From the NCBI GenBank assembly GCA_947449255.1, contig CANFQX010000003.1, positions 1-64,000 of the forward strand: a stretch of DNA of 64,000 nucleotides, given 5' to 3'. The notes beneath the pieces were generated by a model, which was not told the origin of the DNA, did not search any database, and saw only the letters and a program-made list of their open reading frames with translations. The position numbers were made by a program, and so were the translations under genes. Of this stretch, positions 39,670-51,831 are shown piece after piece (the first letter of the stretch is position 1; each line of letters begins with the position of its first letter). The stretch comes from Pseudobdellovibrionaceae bacterium. Its GTDB lineage: Bacteria > Bdellovibrionota > Bdellovibrionia > Bdellovibrionales > Bdellovibrionaceae.

Positions 39670-39771
39670 TTGGGGATCCTTGTTTATGACAAAGCTATGA
39701 ATTGAAATGGGGGGAAAGGCAATGGTTAATGAGGGGATGGGGGCTTGGATTGCTCTTTTTGGGTTTTTTAT

Positions 39772-39850
39772 ACAGCTGCTTTTGGTGTTGCACTTTCTGG
39801 CCATCCTGAGCGGCCTTCCTCAAGCGCATCGTGCGCTTGAGGCCAAAGTT
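39772..39850. repeat. Dispersed hairpin repeat, copy 3
   Basis: Related to copies 1 and 2 (ACAGCTGC to CCAAAGTT), hairpin at 39818-39842. Intergenic, between the esterase and the DUF899 gene; the short open frame across it is not a gene. Confidence 0.85.
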
Positions 39851-39979
39851 CTTGGGTTTGCGAGGTGGTTTTCTTTGATTTGTTTTTTAGCACTTTGATC
39901 TTTTTAAATCGGTTTATATTTGAGTTCGATTTTTGGCTCTGCTCAGATGGTTATTGTACTCAATAGAGGAGGAATATTT

Positions 39980-41686: not shown

Positions 41687-43069
41687 GTGAAAAAAGAAAA
41701 CCTTCATTTGAATAGATTTGTTGAGATATTCTCTATCAACCGCTTTTCGTATTTCTGGTTCATCCTTTTGTGCTTGCTTGTGCAGCAAGCTGTGGTTGCA
41801 TCGTCATCTGTTTGGCTGACAAGATTTTCGCGGAATCTTCAGTTAGGCCATTTTGACAGTTCGAATTTATTGTTGTTTTCCTTTTCGCTCTTGTTTCCGT
41901 ACCTTCCGGGAGCCCTTTCGTTAGGTTTGCTGAAAAAATGGGAGATTCACAGTCAGAGCACCTTTTGGAGGAAATATATCCTACTATGGAAGGATCGCAT
42001 AGATTTGTGGAACAACAAAGAGCGCAAGCAAACGCAGAGCTCCCTTGTGACAAAGGAAGCACCTCAGCTGATTTCAGAAACCAATCGACTTATTTTTGAT
42101 TTGTTCTCGACGGGACTAAACGTTGTTTTGAACCTGATCATTATTAGCACTCTCTTTGATATTAAAATATTCTTTTCCTTTATCGCCGGAGCCTTGATCT
42201 TGATTGTCGGTACATTGTTGACTAAAAATAAGAATCAAAAAATTGCTTCGGAATATGAAAAAGAAAAAACAGTTTTAAGCTCTTGGTTGTCTATTCTGTG
42301 GGACAACCTGACCATAGGCAATGGCATCAATTTTTATCATTGGCAAAATATCTTTGAAGCCAGAAAGTTTCAATTAAAAGCAAAGACGATGGAGTTTTGC
42401 CATTCGCAAGAGGTGACTTCAACCTTCATTTCAATGTTGGGATTTATTCCCACAGTGGGACTGATCCTATTTTATTCTTTTGAGAAATCAAATCACCCCC
42501 AAGAGCTCGTTCCCTTTGTTGTTCTTTTTCCAAGAATTTTTGGTTTGCTGAACGTAACAACCACTCTCGTGTTTTTATTGAGAAGCTCCTATGGTTATTC
42601 CGGTCGGTGGAGCTATTTGTTAAATGAAATGAGAGCGCCGCAGCCTCACGATCTTAACGAACGGATCAACATGACTAAAATCAGCGTGGATCAGGTTCCA
42701 GCTGATTTTGGCAGTCCTGGTGATATTCTGGAGCTGATCAAAGGACATGGCCAGCGTTTGACCCTCCGAGGCGATAACGGAGCGGGAAAGTCCACTCTTC
42801 TGTATTGGCTTAAAAATGAATTGGGTGAGGATTCATGCTATTTGCCTCACCAAAGCAATTTGGTTTTTCAAGATTGTGACGATAAAAAATCAACAGGGCA
42901 GAGGATGAGATTTCATCTCAATGAGCTCCTAAACACAACAAAGGCCAAGATTATTTTATTAGACGAGTGGGATGCAAATTTGGATTCAAGCAGCATCATG
43001 GAGACCTCTCGGCTTATCGATGAAATAGCTCAGTTTAAAACGGTTATCGAAGTGAGGCATCGGACATAA
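41687..43069 (+). CDS. ABC transporter-like protein, fused membrane and ATPase domains
   Basis: A 460-residue half-transporter. Residues 1-300 hold about six hydrophobic segments; the nucleotide-binding domain has Walker A GDNGAGKST (362-370), Walker B IILLDEWDANLD and a switch-like His (EVRHRT) at the very end. The NBD is short (~150 residues), and the usual LSGGQ signature is replaced by STGQRMRF. GTG start with weak ribosome-binding site. It is the first plus-strand gene of the putative peptide cluster and may export its product; ATPase competence is uncertain. Confidence 0.75.
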   Translation: MKKENLHLNRFVEIFSINRFSYFWFILLCLLVQQAVVASSSVWLTRFSRNLQLGHFDSSNLLLFSFSLLFPYLPGALSLGLLKKWEIHSQSTFWRKYILLWKDRIDLWNNKERKQTQSSLVTKEAPQLISETNRLIFDLFSTGLNVVLNLIIISTLFDIKIFFSFIAGALILIVGTLLTKNKNQKIASEYEKEKTVLSSWLSILWDNLTIGNGINFYHWQNIFEARKFQLKAKTMEFCHSQEVTSTFISMLGFIPTVGLILFYSFEKSNHPQELVPFVVLFPRIFGLLNVTTTLVFLLRSSYGYSGRWSYLLNEMRAPQPHDLNERINMTKISVDQVPADFGSPGDILELIKGHGQRLTLRGDNGAGKSTLLYWLKNELGEDSCYLPHQSNLVFQDCDDKKSTGQRMRFHLNELLNTTKAKIILLDEWDANLDSSSIMETSRLIDEIAQFKTVIEVRHRT

Positions 43070-43458
43070 ATATGAAAGCCCTCGGTTAGAGAGGGTGAGG
43101 TAGCCATGATTTTCGATGTGTCCGATTTTCAGACAAGGGAAACTAAGGTCGACGCTCTGATGTTGGTCTAACTTGTGAATTCTCGTGAAACTGTTGATGA
43201 AACAAGTGTGGGTCATAATCTGACCGCAGTTCAAAATTACTAAATTTAAATGGTTAATATGATGTCTATGGTTAATATATTGACTATTTATGAAGGTCCA
43301 CTTAAAATGATTGTAAGGATTCAGGCATGGCTAATACTCTGGTAGAGAAAGTTAGCTCTATGGCAGGCCAACTAGAAATAGAAAAATAGTCACGGCCTAT
43401 GATGCTGACTTTATGAAAACCGGAACGGAATTGTACTCAAAAAAGTAGGAGTTCAAAA
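43070..43458. other. Intergenic region with an 18-bp-period direct repeat
   Basis: The direct repeat ATGGTTAATAT occurs at 43250-43260 and 43268-43278. Further left is an inverted pair TCGGACA/TGTCCGA with a CCCTC/GAGGG hairpin between them, near 43062-43130, possibly a terminator for the transporter gene. No gene found. Confidence 0.45.
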
Positions 43459-43869
43459 ATGAATCTTAAATACTTACCCGAAAGTGACTTAATGTACATC
43501 TACTTTGAAAGTAATGTTCCAAACACTCAAACTCGCACTGGTCGTGAGAGCATTTTTAAATTTGTCGCTAAAGCGGACAAAAGTAAAATCATTGGGTACG
43601 AAGTGGAAAAGGTTTCTGATAATTTAAACTATGTTTTGGCGAAGTTAAATCTCAATAGCAAGCAAAAGCTAGCGATCTGCCTTTACTTCATTCGTGAGCG
43701 GGATGGCAAAACTCAAGAGCAGAGTGCAGAGGCTCTGGAAATTTCTCTCAGCAAGTATAAGAGCTTAGAAAAAGCAAATCATAATATTAATTTTGATACG
43801 CTCGAAAGTATTTTCGAAACTTTCCCGAATGAACATATCCTAGGCACCGTGTTTCGCACGGCGGTTTAA
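43459..43869 (+). CDS. DUF2283-like/XRE fusion regulator
   Basis: A 136-residue protein. The first ~55 residues (LKYLPESDLMYIYFE, later IIGYEVEKVSD) resemble DUF2283; the rest is an XRE helix-turn-helix (DGKTQEQSAEALEISLSKYKSLEKA). AGGAG precedes the ATG. It lies between the ABC transporter and the precursor-like peptide and is the likely regulator of the following operon; a 22-bp inverted repeat lies upstream of that operon. Confidence 0.65.
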   Translation: MNLKYLPESDLMYIYFESNVPNTQTRTGRESIFKFVAKADKSKIIGYEVEKVSDNLNYVLAKLNLNSKQKLAICLYFIRERDGKTQEQSAEALEISLSKYKSLEKANHNINFDTLESIFETFPNEHILGTVFRTAV

Positions 43870-44202
43870 TTCGTTATGATTCAGAATTCAATTTCTGCTA
43901 AGAAGTCAATTGTGGTCCTTCCTTGCTTAAAATTGGTTCCGAACAAATTTTTTGTAAAACTGTTTTTGTGGAATAAATAAACAAAATCCCGTGAGTGCCA
44001 GCGCCTATATATTGTGCGACCTTTAAAAGGACGGAGTGCCCTAGTTAGGCACAGAATATAAATCCATAAGCTAAGACGATAATCCTAAATTTCGGACATA
44101 TTTTTTGTCAAATCAAACATATTAGATCTGATCACATCTAATGTTGGCATCTTTGTTGCTGAATCAGAAAATAACAATAATTCATAAAACAAAGGAAACA
44201 AT
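43870..44202. other. Intergenic leader region of the peptide operon
   Basis: 333 bases with no gene. It contains a small hairpin GTGCC/GGCAC near 44036-44052 and the inverted repeat listed at 44121-44142. A transcription start for the peptide operon is expected here, although no clear -35/-10 pair is seen. Confidence 0.45.
44121..44142. promoter_or_regulatory. Inverted repeat ATTAGAT-N8-ATCTAAT, likely operator
   Basis: A perfect 7-bp inverted repeat with an 8-bp spacer, about 60 bases before the precursor-like gene and next to an XRE regulator gene. Size and symmetry fit an XRE dimer site. Confidence 0.55.
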
Positions 44203-44565
44203 ATGAATAAAAAAACGATCATCAGCCTTCTATTAATCGCAAACCTTTATGGGCACATTTCTAGTGCAAATGAGGTCGTTATGTCGAGTTCAAGATTACA
44301 AAATCTTTCGACGGGCGAAATTTCAAATCTTATTGCTGAGGGCGCAGTTCGCATTGAAAATGATCAAGCTTTATTAAACATGAATGTGCTCAATAATATT
44401 CTTAGAGATGGAGTTAAGGTTAATAATTTAGCGTTTCACGCTAAGGCAGTGAGTACGCAATTTATACCCTATGGGCATACGCTTGAGAATGGTGAAATTC
44501 GAAACAGAGATTTGGCCGAGACTTTAACTGCTCGGTTTGTCCCTTACGGCAATACCATTGATTAA
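44203..44565 (+). CDS. Precursor-like secreted peptide with duplicated F-[IV]-P-Y-G-x-T core motif
   Basis: 120 residues. Residues 1-22 look like a Sec signal (TIISLLLIANLYGHISSA). A linker of ~55 residues follows (LSTGEISNLIAEGAV). The C-terminus has two 16-residue repeats at 80-95 and 105-120, period 25: A-x-x-[VL]-[ST]-[TA]-[QR]-F-[IV]-P-Y-G-[HN]-T-[LI]-[ED]. Short leader plus repeated C-terminal core followed by modification-type genes is the layout of a RiPP precursor; a signal peptide would be unusual. AAAGGAAAC precedes the ATG. No homologue is recognised. Confidence 0.7.
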   Translation: MNKKTIISLLLIANLYGHISSANEVVMSSSRLQNLSTGEISNLIAEGAVRIENDQALLNMNVLNNILRDGVKVNNLAFHAKAVSTQFIPYGHTLENGEIRNRDLAETLTARFVPYGNTID

Positions 44566-44582
44566 TAAAGAATAGGTGTAAA

Positions 44583-45503
44583 ATGTTAAACCATCAATTT
44601 CAATGTTGGCTCGATTTTATTTCAAATTCAGAGAGTTCACTGCTGAGTCCTTTAGGGACGACACTTTGGATTGATGGCATTAACACCTTGAGCAATTTAG
44701 ATACTAATGCTTTTTTTAAAAATGAAGCGCATCTTGATGAAAAAGAAAAAAGTGGATTAAGACTCCTCCATTTTGCGGTGGAGGAGTCTTTAGAGGATAA
44801 AAACTTTTTGGTATCTGGGCACGCAAGCCTTATGATGGATTCTCCACTTTATCGTCATACGAATAACAAAAGATCAACAGCTCAGCTTAGTTATACCTTT
44901 GTTGATGGGGATGTTGGTGATTTTTCACCATGGAATGACGAAATCATATTAGGCACCAAGTTTTATTCGCGCATTAAAGGACAAACAAGAATACCATTTT
45001 ACACCTATAATCATGAGAATACACACCTTACTCTTTTCAAGAAGGTTTATTCAAATTTGAATTTGAATAATGAAGAATTGACTGATCTATTAATTTTAAG
45101 TGAATGGTTTTGTATTTCTACTGATTTGATTTTAGCTTATGACTTAATAAAAACCAAAAATAACTCCTGCTATGCTGAGCTTTGCCGGGTTCCTTTTTGT
45201 CGAGATAACAATGGGAAGAAAGTTTTTGATAATCATTGTACCAGCGTTGGTGCGATTGATAGTTTTTCAGACAAATTCAGAAAAACTATTTTAGGAATTG
45301 AGAGCAATGTAGAGGTTTTTGACCTAATATCAGAAAAAACATTAGAATCTCATAGAGACTATGCCAGAGAAATTTTACTGCCAAAAATAAAATCAATTCC
45401 TGCTGCATTGTCTCGCAATGAGTCTTTGGACTTGTTAAGTCTTTTAAAAAATGAACCTTTATCTAGTTTGATAAACATATTTACGGGGATTCAGTATGAA
45501 TAA
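44583..45503 (+). CDS. HExxH-motif protein of unknown function
   Basis: A 306-residue cytosolic protein without signal peptide. Residues 144-148 are HENTH, a perfect HExxH metal-binding motif inside a helix (TYNHENTHLTLFKKV); a Glu at ~174 (LSEWF) could be a third ligand. Five Cys residues follow (177, 196, 201, 206, 219). It may be a zinc peptidase or an iron/2-oxoglutarate HExxH-type peptide hydroxylase as known from RiPP clusters; the sequence does not decide. It starts 17 bases after the peptide gene and overlaps the kinase-GNAT gene by eight bases. Confidence 0.6.
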   Translation: MLNHQFQCWLDFISNSESSLLSPLGTTLWIDGINTLSNLDTNAFFKNEAHLDEKEKSGLRLLHFAVEESLEDKNFLVSGHASLMMDSPLYRHTNNKRSTAQLSYTFVDGDVGDFSPWNDEIILGTKFYSRIKGQTRIPFYTYNHENTHLTLFKKVYSNLNLNNEELTDLLILSEWFCISTDLILAYDLIKTKNNSCYAELCRVPFCRDNNGKKVFDNHCTSVGAIDSFSDKFRKTILGIESNVEVFDLISEKTLESHRDYAREILLPKIKSIPAALSRNESLDLLSLLKNEPLSSLINIFTGIQYE

Positions 45504-46722
45504 TAAATTGGACCTGAATTTCAATTTGAAACCTCAAATCCATCGGCATTCAAGTGGATTGTTAGCTAACGATTCAGAAAACAATTATTATCTAAAAACT
45601 TCAACCGACAGTGCATTGTCGATCAAGCAGTTTGAAAGTGAAGAAAATTTTTATCGTAGGATTTCAAACATAGAATCTATCTTGCCTCAAATTTGTTTGC
45701 ATAAAATCAATGATAAATTGTTCAGAGTTTTTCCTTATGTCCCAATGGATTTGGTCGATTTTGTTGGCAAGATTGATTGTGACATTCTCGTTAATGACAT
45801 TTTAATTCCTCTGCTTGATTGTTTATCGAAAATACACCATCAAGGTGTTCTTCACGGCGACATTAAATTAGAAAATATTCGTGTTTTGAAAAAAGACGAT
45901 CGCTTGAAGGTTTTTCTGTCCGACTTTGGCAATTCTGTGACTTTGGATAAGTTCAATGCAAATCGAATTGGAGCTCTTCCCCAACATATTCCACCTGATT
46001 TAACTCTGAGCCCGCAATTTGACATCTACTCCTTGGGAGTCATTGCATTTCAACTGATATTCGGATTTGATTTTATAAAGAAATTTCAGATGGCGGGGAG
46101 AAGCTTTGAGGCTTTGCCTGAAGCTAAAGTTGTTGATCCTAAAATATTAGATTTTATAATCAAAGCAACGTCGCCTTCTGCGTTGTATAGGTTCAAGACC
46201 GCTCAGCAAGCCAAAGATGTATTTGTCGAGGCTCAAGTTGTAAGCGAGCCCATTCTTGAAAATTATAATCTTGAATTGTATTTTGAATTCTATCTTGAGG
46301 CTATGCGGGAGACTTTTATTGCTAGCAATCGAAGCACCAAGGATTATGAAAATTTTATTGGCCCCTGGGGTGAGACTTATTATTGCCGGCTGCAAAAATG
46401 GCTTAAAAGCGATAAAGCACAATTAATGCATCTCAAAAAAGGCAATGATTTAATTGGGATTTCTGAGGCTATCCTTGCAGATGAAAATTCAGGAATGATT
46501 AATACTCTATTTGTGTCTAAAAATCATCGAGACGGTCAATGTGCGAAAGTTCTAGAGGCATCTGCCGTAAATTTTTTTAAAACAAATCAGCGAACTCAGG
46601 CTGTACTTAATGTTGCTGAAAGCAATCAGCGTGCCATAAGGTTTTATAAGAGATTGGGATGGAGTGAGGCAACTCCGAGGCAGTATCTACAAGCTGTGCT
46701 TTTGAAAAAAACACTTTTGTGA
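45496..46722 (+). CDS. Ser/Thr-kinase-like and GNAT acetyltransferase fusion
   Basis: 408 residues. Residues ~30-240 form a protein-kinase fold: catalytic loop HGDIKLEN (120-127), metal-binding DFG (143-145), and FDIYSLGVIAFQLI; the N-lobe Lys is likely in YYLK. Residues ~260-405 form a GNAT domain (IGISEAILAD, TLFVSKNHRDGQCAKVL, RAIRFYKRLGW). The two modules could phosphorylate and acylate the same peptide or protein. It is translationally coupled to the HExxH gene. Last gene of the operon. I know no named family with this architecture. Confidence 0.72.
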   Translation: MNNKLDLNFNLKPQIHRHSSGLLANDSENNYYLKTSTDSALSIKQFESEENFYRRISNIESILPQICLHKINDKLFRVFPYVPMDLVDFVGKIDCDILVNDILIPLLDCLSKIHHQGVLHGDIKLENIRVLKKDDRLKVFLSDFGNSVTLDKFNANRIGALPQHIPPDLTLSPQFDIYSLGVIAFQLIFGFDFIKKFQMAGRSFEALPEAKVVDPKILDFIIKATSPSALYRFKTAQQAKDVFVEAQVVSEPILENYNLELYFEFYLEAMRETFIASNRSTKDYENFIGPWGETYYCRLQKWLKSDKAQLMHLKKGNDLIGISEAILADENSGMINTLFVSKNHRDGQCAKVLEASAVNFFKTNQRTQAVLNVAESNQRAIRFYKRLGWSEATPRQYLQAVLLKKTLL

Positions 46723-49722: not shown

Positions 49723-49771
49723 TTCTTACCATAATTTCAGCGCGTTACTTTTATTAATTTTTCTTACACAA

Positions 49772-49921
49772 TGAAAAGCAACAATCAAAAAATCAATCAT
49801 ACTGAAGTCATTCTTGCCATGATCTATCAAGGTCTAGGATTCGGGGACGGCAGACTTTATTTGGCAAAAGACTTCTTTTCAAATAAGCCCAAGGATGTGC
49901 TGTTTCGACAGGGCATTAAAG
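49772..49921 (+). pseudogene. N-terminal fragment of an IS1634-type transposase
   Basis: About 50 codons from an ATG match residues 5-52 of the intact transposase on the opposite strand (NNQKINHTEVILAMIYQGLGFGDG) and break off where the terminal inverted repeat of the intact IS begins. Rest of this copy is absent from the other side of the IS. Confidence 0.75.
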
Positions 49922-51831
49922 TGACATTTCGGAGTTGAAATTTCAAATGCCAGCCACTATAGAAAAATCCACAGCTTCATTGCTGTTATCTGGCGTATCT
50001 TTTAAGGTTTTTCGGTAAAACTGCTTTTACTGACATGATTTAGACGCAGGTATTCCCTGGCTCTTTATGAACTCAAAAAAGTGACTTCGGTGTGTGAATT
50101 GTATTTAGCTACAAGAAACCATAGGTGGCTAAGGCATAGCTGCCAAAGCACTCAATAATTATTCGCTGGATCTTTCCAATTTCTTTAAATTCGTCGTACA
50201 TACGACCAAAAAGATCGACTCTAACTCTCACAACCTTTTTCATCATCTGAAAAATCCACTTTAAACTTGGATTTGCGATATCCTTTCCCACTTGATTCGG
50301 GATTTTCTGACTTCTTTTGCTTAGGGAATTTCTCACTTCCAGTTGACCAAGATTATGCACAAACAAACAAAGTGTCATCACCGTGAGCAAGGCTTGGATG
50401 CGATCAACTCGCTTCAAAAAGATCTGATTGAGCTTCAACGAGGAATCCTTCATCACACGAAAACAGCGCTCAATATTTGCATTTCTTCCTATATAAAGCT
50501 GGATCAGTGCATTTGAGCTAAGATCTTTTTTATCCAAGATATTCGTAGCAATGATGAATTTTCCTTTTCGGTTCTGAACCTTTTTGATGAGGTCTTCATT
50601 TCTCTCGAAACTAATATAAACCCGATGTCCTTTTGCGGTCCTAGGTCTTTGACCACGTCCTTTTTTGAAGTTACCTAAAACCTCAAATTGGATGCTATGA
50701 TGAGGATGACCTTTCTGAAGTCTTTTTAGTTCAAAATAAATTTCAGCTTTCTTAGCGAAGATCTTTTTCATTAACACAATAGTCTTCTTTGTGAGATTAG
50801 CCTTTTCTTTTTTAAGATTATTCTCGACCGTGGCGAGTTCTTTGTGCCTAGCCAATCGGCTACTAACAACGACCCATCTTTGTTCTAAACTTGCGTAGGT
50901 CATTTTGTATTCAAAATATTTATAGTCTTCATTTAGCTTTTGCCAAGACACTTGGCTGTGGTCTCTCTCAACGAGGTTTTTTGCTAACTTTATTGATTCA
51001 TGAACCCTGGTGATCCAATCACTGGTGATATTTTTATTGAGCAAGAATTTCTTTGAATACAAGGCAGAGTCAGCCACAAAGCCCAAACTCAAATCTTGCT
51101 TAATATTTTGGATGTGGTTTTGAATGGAGGTGATCGCTGCCGGAAATAACTCTCTATCGCTTAAATTACCAGACCGCACTGCAGTCCAAAAAGGCAATCC
51201 CGATTCCGTTGTCATCAGAAATTGCAACACCTGGGGAAGATCTGCACGCCCCTTTGAATGTCCGAAGTTTACTTTAACTTTACCAGCTGCTTTATATTTT
51301 CTTCCATGAAATGAGTGCGTCGTTGAATCGAGATGCGCAAATCTTGAAACAAGATTATTGGCAATCAGGGTGTGAAAAGCAATGTTCGTGAAAAACCTCG
51401 TGGGACCATAATCTGTAATGGCATCGAGTGCCGCGCCCAAAACATCATCATTAAACATTGTTGATTTAATGCCCTTACGAAACAGCACATCCATGGGCTT
51501 ATTGGAAAAGAAGTCCTTGGCAAAATAAAGTCTGCCGTCGCCAAATCCTAGACCTTGGTAAACCATGGCAAGAATAGCTTCAGCATGATTGATTTTTTGA
51601 TTGTTGCTTGTCTTGGGCAAAAGGAGATTGATCTTTTCTGCGATCTTAAACTTTTTAACGACAGCGGAGATAAGACCTAAATGTCCTATTTCCTGGATCG
51701 CTAGGCTTTTGGCATTTCATCCATGAATTACCTCAAATGTTGATATTTTAAGATTAGTATAGGTATGATGGTCCAGAAAAGTAAGAAGTTTCAGAGTGTA
51801 CTAGATTTTAAAATTCAACTCCGGAATGTCA
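49922..51831 (-). mobile_element. IS1634-family insertion sequence
   Basis: An element of about 1.9 kb bounded by imperfect inverted repeats: TGACATTTCGGAGTTGAA at 49922-49939 and the complement of TGACATTCCGGAGTTGAA at 51814-51831 (one mismatch). It carries one transposase gene on the minus strand. I see no clear target-site duplication. Fragments of the same element lie at 49772-49921 and about 53440-53663. Confidence 0.8.
50109..51620 (-). CDS. IS1634-family transposase
   Basis: A 503-residue DDE transposase: DALxDYGPTRFF near residue 70, LDSTTHSFHGRK (first Asp), FVADSALYSKKFLL (second Asp), and a C-terminal IERCFRVMKDSSLK (Glu) as in IS4/IS1634 enzymes. The reported start is TTG, but the same frame continues upstream with IQEIGHLGLISAVVKKFK, the normal N-terminal DUF4277 segment. 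An ATG at 51724 is joined to it only if one A is added at an AAAA run, so the natural start appears frameshifted. Activity is therefore uncertain. Confidence 0.85.
   Translation of the reverse strand: MPKTSNNQKINHAEAILAMVYQGLGFGDGRLYFAKDFFSNKPMDVLFRKGIKSTMFNDDVLGAALDAITDYGPTRFFTNIAFHTLIANNLVSRFAHLDSTTHSFHGRKYKAAGKVKVNFGHSKGRADLPQVLQFLMTTESGLPFWTAVRSGNLSDRELFPAAITSIQNHIQNIKQDLSLGFVADSALYSKKFLLNKNITSDWITRVHESIKLAKNLVERDHSQVSWQKLNEDYKYFEYKMTYASLEQRWVVVSSRLARHKELATVENNLKKEKANLTKKTIVLMKKIFAKKAEIYFELKRLQKGHPHHSIQFEVLGNFKKGRGQRPRTAKGHRVYISFERNEDLIKKVQNRKGKFIIATNILDKKDLSSNALIQLYIGRNANIERCFRVMKDSSLKLNQIFLKRVDRIQALLTVMTLCLFVHNLGQLEVRNSLSKRSQKIPNQVGKDIANPSLKWIFQMMKKVVRVRVDLFGRMYDEFKEIGKIQRIIIECFGSYALATYGFL

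Follow-up and report, generated by a model that had tools for sequence, protein, structure and literature searches.

A stretch of 64,000 nucleotides from contig CANFQX010000003.1 of a Pseudobdellovibrionaceae bacterium, hereafter the window, contains a three-gene operon of 2.5 kb which encodes a short peptide of secreted type, a protein with an HExxH motif and a fusion of a kinase with a GNAT acetyltransferase domain. Numbering follows the window, and all open reading frames (ORFs) listed here lie on the + strand. The operon is a co-inherited mobile module, and the balance of evidence tips modestly toward a system akin to those producing ribosomally synthesized and post-translationally modified peptides (RiPPs); its F-x-P-Y-G-x-T cores would be acted on by a divergent HExxH oxygenase and by a kinase-acetyltransferase ahead of export through the Sec pathway. 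An earlier sequence-only reading had grouped five genes into one cluster, and all five ORFs were recovered at the same coordinates on the + strand. The 17-base gap between the peptide and HExxH genes and the 8-base overlap between the HExxH and kinase-GNAT genes have both proved exact. The cluster itself has been retained in part: its last three genes form a conserved, self-contained operon, whereas the transporter and regulator located upstream do not travel with them.

Homologous operons have been compared in three cases, namely the window, a member of the same genus (L002/L058) and a member of the same family (L003). Gene order is the same and spacing is tight in the three genomes, with proteins that are 39-51% identical. 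Fourfold degenerate sites in the operon homologues are 58-76% different, compared with 33-42% at the first two codon positions, which indicates that the protein sequences are under conservation. The third operon is carried by a metagenome-assembled genome (MAG) titled Streptomyces griseus (L004, CALQIT020000147.1); a genome search places this MAG in the window's own family, and the title is probably wrong. Profile searches have detected the HExxH protein in 3 of 144 genomes of the class, with no further credible match in 369 genomes of the phylum, and the peptide and the full-length kinase-GNAT were found only in the same three genomes, further matches to the latter being single-domain only. 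No member of the trio was found without the other two in the class- and phylum-wide searches (143-369 genomes each), so that the enzymes were not seen apart from the peptide, and the association anticipated by the sequence-only reading recurs, in the same order, in two more genomes. A contig search for more HExxH homologues returned only the contig of genome G042 again, and plasmids, phages and viral contigs yielded none.

The operon is also inserted as a unit. At L058 it is located between tRNA-Ser and slyX/queF-like genes, while in a closely related genome (G018) just 77 bp or so separate these flanks beside tRNA-Ser, an empty site which indicates that the insert comprises exactly the three genes. 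Other cargo genes occupy this tRNA-Ser site in another genome (G008), and the distribution of the operon is sporadic, with insertion at a tRNA hotspot. The L058 operon lies at the 3' end of tRNA-Ser (L058:9502-9594), with its kinase-GNAT gene running into the tRNA on the opposite strand and ending in ..NGGKGGI. A candidate upstream element of 15 bp, TCCTAAnnnTCGGAC (44083..44097, + strand), has an exact match 105-132 bp 5' of the precursor start in each of the three operons and, of the 144 loci compared, is confined to those that include these operons; in a MAFFT alignment the region is less clean for L003, the copy being placed in another column.

The first gene (44203..44565) encodes a peptide of 120 residues, with homologues that are 51% and 47% identical, comprising a signal peptide, a leader and two C-terminal F-x-P-Y-G-x-T motifs. 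As judged by eye, it begins with a putative Sec signal peptide, MNKKTIISLLLIANLYGHISSA (44203..44268), followed by NEV, where a KK pair, a hydrophobic core and an S-S-A / A-S-A site are typical of Sec signals and cleavage is predicted before NE. M-N-K-K-T-I and A-N-L-Y-G are invariant in the three homologues, and fourfold sites of the peptide gene are 69-76% different, compared with 33-37% at codon positions 1 and 2. The first core motif, FIPYGHT (residues 87-93; 44461..44481), corresponds to FVPYGQT at the same position in L002 and to a degenerate SIPGYT in L003, while the second, FVPYGNT (residues 112-118; 44536..44556), belongs to an R-F-V-P-Y-G-x-T stretch which is invariant in all three. 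The window peptide and its L002 homologue each carry two copies of F-[VI]-P-Y-G-x-T, at matching positions, and L003 has one intact copy. The duplication of C-terminal motifs that had been claimed for this peptide is real, since the motif did not occur twice in any of 200,000 shuffles of the window peptide and its positions are shared with L002. In a crude identity test of the repeat, the window peptide was matched by 144 of 1000 shuffles, which is not beyond chance, and L002 by 0 of 1000. A conserved N-terminal part joined to an invariant C-terminus is the pattern expected of a ribosomal precursor, and co-encoding and co-inheritance with the enzymes, as expected of a RiPP system, are seen in the recurrence of the same trio in three genomes and in the empty site. 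Nothing credible was found for the peptide in Pfam, NCBIfam or PADLOC.

The signal and the segment following it are common to the window peptide and the secreted peptides of cassettes which carry an HExxH enzyme of the TIGR04267 (mod_HExxH) family (L115, L118, L121 and relatives). When the leader without its signal was aligned by hhalign with a profile built from six cassette peptides, a score of 21.2 was obtained, compared with maxima of 18.4 among 200 column shuffles and 14.4 among 29 decoy slices; an earlier version with three peptides was weak (18.3 vs 15.2). The hhalign probability is 7 without the signal and 75 with it. These comparisons suggest that the leader domain is shared with the cassette peptides while the core is different, and the score above shuffles and decoys would tie the window peptide to substrates of HExxH oxygenases independently of the enzyme fold, a link that is suggestive rather than proven. 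Leader matches in other proteins (G039, G008) were rejected as signal-peptide resemblance only.

The second gene (44583..45503) encodes the HExxH protein of 306 residues, whose motif (residues 144-148; 45012..45026) reads HENTH or HENAH across the three homologues, being invariant in H, E, N and H. Searches of Pfam, NCBIfam, PADLOC and PDB sequences returned nothing credible for it. A full-length AlphaFold2 model was poor (predicted local distance difference test, pLDDT, 58) and gave no useful fold match, while a model of residues 72-306 reached a pLDDT of 72.6 and a predicted template modelling score (pTM) of 0.76. In VIA-align, the best row for the latter model is the HExxH domain of ChlH (PDB 8s5f), with a Z of 5.8 over 155 residues and a root mean square deviation of 4.6, a Z which falls below 8 and is too low to be trusted as a fold match alone. 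The next row has a Z of 3.4, and zinc peptidases (M1, selecase, PPEP and Zmp1) are found among the weaker rows, with Z of 2.7-3.2. On the basis of this model, the protein likely adopts a zincin-like fold, nearest the alpha-ketoglutarate (alpha-KG) HExxH oxygenases. Two glutamates, E165 and E174, are invariant, and both alignment and model place them in the helix after HENxH.

The third gene (45496..46722) encodes the kinase-GNAT fusion of 408 residues, with a kinase-like N-terminal half and a GNAT domain from about residue 257. Both assignments are above Pfam cut-offs, with Pkinase (PF00069) at 8e-12 and 45.5 bits against a cut-off of 31.7, and Acetyltransf_1 (PF00583) at 1e-8. The kinase catalytic residues K34, E49, D122, N127 and D143, corresponding to the Lys, the Glu and the HxD...N and DFG motifs, are invariant in the three homologues. 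Weak partial NCBIfam matches of the kinase region to class III/IV lanthipeptide synthetases have also been observed, far below the cut-offs. As no signal sequence was seen by eye in either the HExxH protein or the kinase-GNAT, both are expected to act in the cytoplasm, ahead of Sec export.

In the scheme that best accommodates these observations, the peptide would be a precursor made up of a Sec signal, a leader domain and, at its C-terminus, F-x-P-Y-G-x-T cores, one or two in number. The HExxH protein, a putative divergent metalloenzyme of zincin fold, would bind the leader in the cytoplasm and oxidise the core, most likely through beta-hydroxylation of proline or of an aromatic residue. Known alpha-KG-HExxH enzymes modify RiPP precursors, with a GNAT also encoded in one biosynthetic gene cluster (PMC12636437), and the residues hydroxylated by them are Asp, His, Gln, Phe and Pro (PMC12636437, PMC13060819), the last by PesO (PMC13060819). 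F-x-P-Y-G contains Phe, Pro and Tyr as candidate residues. The kinase-GNAT would add a phosphate and/or an acyl group, most likely on the invariant threonine or on the hydroxyl made by the oxygenase, and the modified precursor would leave through Sec, a route for which no dedicated transporter would be needed.

Several points, in addition to the low Z score, weigh against this scheme. The TIGR04267 profile does not match any of the three HExxH proteins at an E of 10, nor is there a match in the window's own genome, and a profile-profile alignment with this family covers only the HENxH stretch. The R-P-x5-H motif containing a downstream conserved histidine, which is present in nearly all TIGR04267 members read (one has R-R for R-P), is absent from the window HExxH family. 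Foldseek returned nothing significant for the model of residues 72-306, and with three sequences the alignments are thin. The GNAT domain in the window reads HRDGQCA in place of the usual R/Q-x-x-G-x-G/A acetyl-CoA loop, which is normal in both homologues (RGKGGA in L002 and RGIGFG in L003), so that acetylation may be weak in the window copy. The third metal ligand would need to be either a carboxylate, from E174 or E165, or a histidine far away in the sequence, and a glutamate, the probable choice, suits a zinc protease equally well. A less likely possibility is that the HExxH protein is a gluzincin-type protease which trims the precursor, leaving modification to the kinase-GNAT alone with no oxidative chemistry. 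The two invariant glutamates, the zinc peptidases among the weaker structural rows and the lack of R-P-x5-H are consistent with such a role. Nonetheless, the oxygenase domain of ChlH heads the structural rows by a clear margin and the leader resembles that of oxygenase-cassette peptides, while a leader protease in the cytoplasm, where the protein appears to reside, would cut before export.

Two further explanations have been considered. The peptide may be left unmodified and serve, once secreted, as a small structural or signalling protein whose C-terminal repeat binds a partner while the enzymes regulate something else in the pathway; only three homologues are available, one of them with a single intact motif, but the strict co-occurrence of the trio as a mobile unit and the short conserved C-terminal core suit a substrate better, and this explanation is considered unlikely. 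Even less credence is given to an anti-phage or toxin-antitoxin type module based on the kinase domain. The kinase half does match the PADLOC kinases MkoA (1.9e-16) and PD-T4-6 (2.6e-11), and a sporadic distribution with insertion at a tRNA hotspot would fit defence. These matches span only the generic kinase domain (about residues 98-250), however, the peptide and the HExxH protein match no PADLOC model, and a secreted repeat peptide would be unexpected in such systems.

Comparison with known systems has shown partial similarities to the RiPP-like module proposed here. The pfl/pos clusters, with the enzymes PflC/PosC (PMC12636437), also combine a precursor with a conserved C-terminal motif, an HExxH protein and, in pfl, a GNAT; unlike the window, they contain a MNIO-nitroreductase, two transporters, a separate GNAT and a Gln-rich core, whereas the window has a kinase fused to the GNAT, a signal peptide, F-x-P-Y-G-x-T cores and an HExxH protein outside TIGR04267. 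The fused radical SAM and alpha-KG-HExxH enzymes ChlB/ChlH (PDB 8s5f; Morishita et al. 2024, as cited in PMC13060819) provide the best fold match, although the window protein has no radical SAM domain and no R-P-x5-H, with sequence similarity limited to HExxH. In the nitrilobacillin cluster, the target of the HExxH oxygenase PesO is a proline close to a conserved C-terminal motif, which parallels the proposal for the window; this pes cluster has in addition a MNIO, an Asn-synthetase-like enzyme, M16 peptidases and a transporter (PMC13060819). Sec signal peptides on RiPP precursors are discussed for the MNIO-modified bufferins (PMC12452194), whose enzyme superfamily and core differ from those of the window. 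Class III/IV lanthipeptide synthetases (LanKC, LanL) likewise place a kinase domain in a peptide-modifying enzyme, but a lyase/cyclase domain is absent from the window fusion and two of the three core regions have no cysteine.

The suggestion that the enzyme set matches no known class is upheld insofar as no RiPP class in NCBIfam or Pfam corresponds to it. RiPP machinery built on HExxH enzymes is known, however, both with a GNAT, as in pfl, and without one (PflC/PosC, PesO, ChlH), so that the system does not fall entirely beyond the classes already described. The combination of a kinase-GNAT, an HExxH protein and a signal-bearing F-x-P-Y-G-x-T peptide is absent from the family libraries and the open-licence PMC literature searched. 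A tentative and rather doubtful proposal is that the operon represents a RiPP class of its own, whose hallmarks would be a bifunctional kinase-acetyltransferase and a 2-His-1-carboxylate HExxH oxygenase that has diverged strongly, with hydroxylation followed by O-phosphorylation or O-acylation of F-x-P-Y-G-x-T in a secreted or periplasmic peptide exported by Sec.

HExxH peptide enzymes are common in this lineage, the TIGR04267 cut-off being passed in 119 of 359 genomes of the phylum. A cassette of a TIGR04267 enzyme, SBP_bac_5 and a histidine kinase recurs in related genomes (L106-L111, L114-L118, L121 and L122, and also L124-L129). Many of its copies include a small secreted peptide and some a sigma-54 response regulator, and the cassette looks like a modified-peptide signalling system. 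Those with secreted peptides at L115, L118 and L121 resemble the window operon in their Sec-type signal, similar leader and HExxH enzyme, and differ in a C-terminal ..HSF, a canonical TIGR04267 enzyme and a binding protein and histidine kinase in place of the kinase-GNAT. At five other loci (L104, L105, L112, L113 and L120), a TIGR04267 enzyme and an ABC exporter mostly follow a short peptide ending in ..MIMIAFD or similar, three of the five also having a protein of about 365 residues without a Pfam family; these look like RiPP clusters with export.

The ABC transporter of the window (41687-43069) is related over its full length to the transporters in this latter type of cluster (28-30% identity, E 1e-33 to 1e-49), with no ..MIMIAFD-type peptide near it. 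It appears as an orphan of that exporter family, with no peptide or TIGR04267 gene nearby, and a second orphan paralogue is found at G000:C15:52220-53506. As an exporter of the operon peptide it was rejected, having no homologue beside the L058 operon and none anywhere in G001 and G042, and its proposed membership of the cluster is not sustained. The HTH protein taken as a regulator (43459-43869) has likewise been set aside, since relatives in G012 and G015, 71-80% identical in DNA, are preceded by a partner of 80-115 residues (DUF4258-like, weak). In the window this partner is reduced to 20 residues (43327-43389); 43327-43869 is probably a damaged toxin-antitoxin pair of which the antitoxin-like half was kept, and intact pairs are present in related genomes. 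Elsewhere in the window, a dispersed repeat of about 90 bp (39764-39858) has about 10 more copies in the same genome, 80-91% identical, and a transposase-like ORF (50109-51620) is found close 3' of the operon, with a partial copy of the ORF start at 49771-49938.

If the peptide is indeed modified, the operon would constitute a minimal RiPP system of three genes in 2.5 kb, with an unusual pair of enzymes and export by Sec, and its small size makes testing by co-expression practicable. In that case the group of HExxH oxygenases would also reach beyond its current sequence family.

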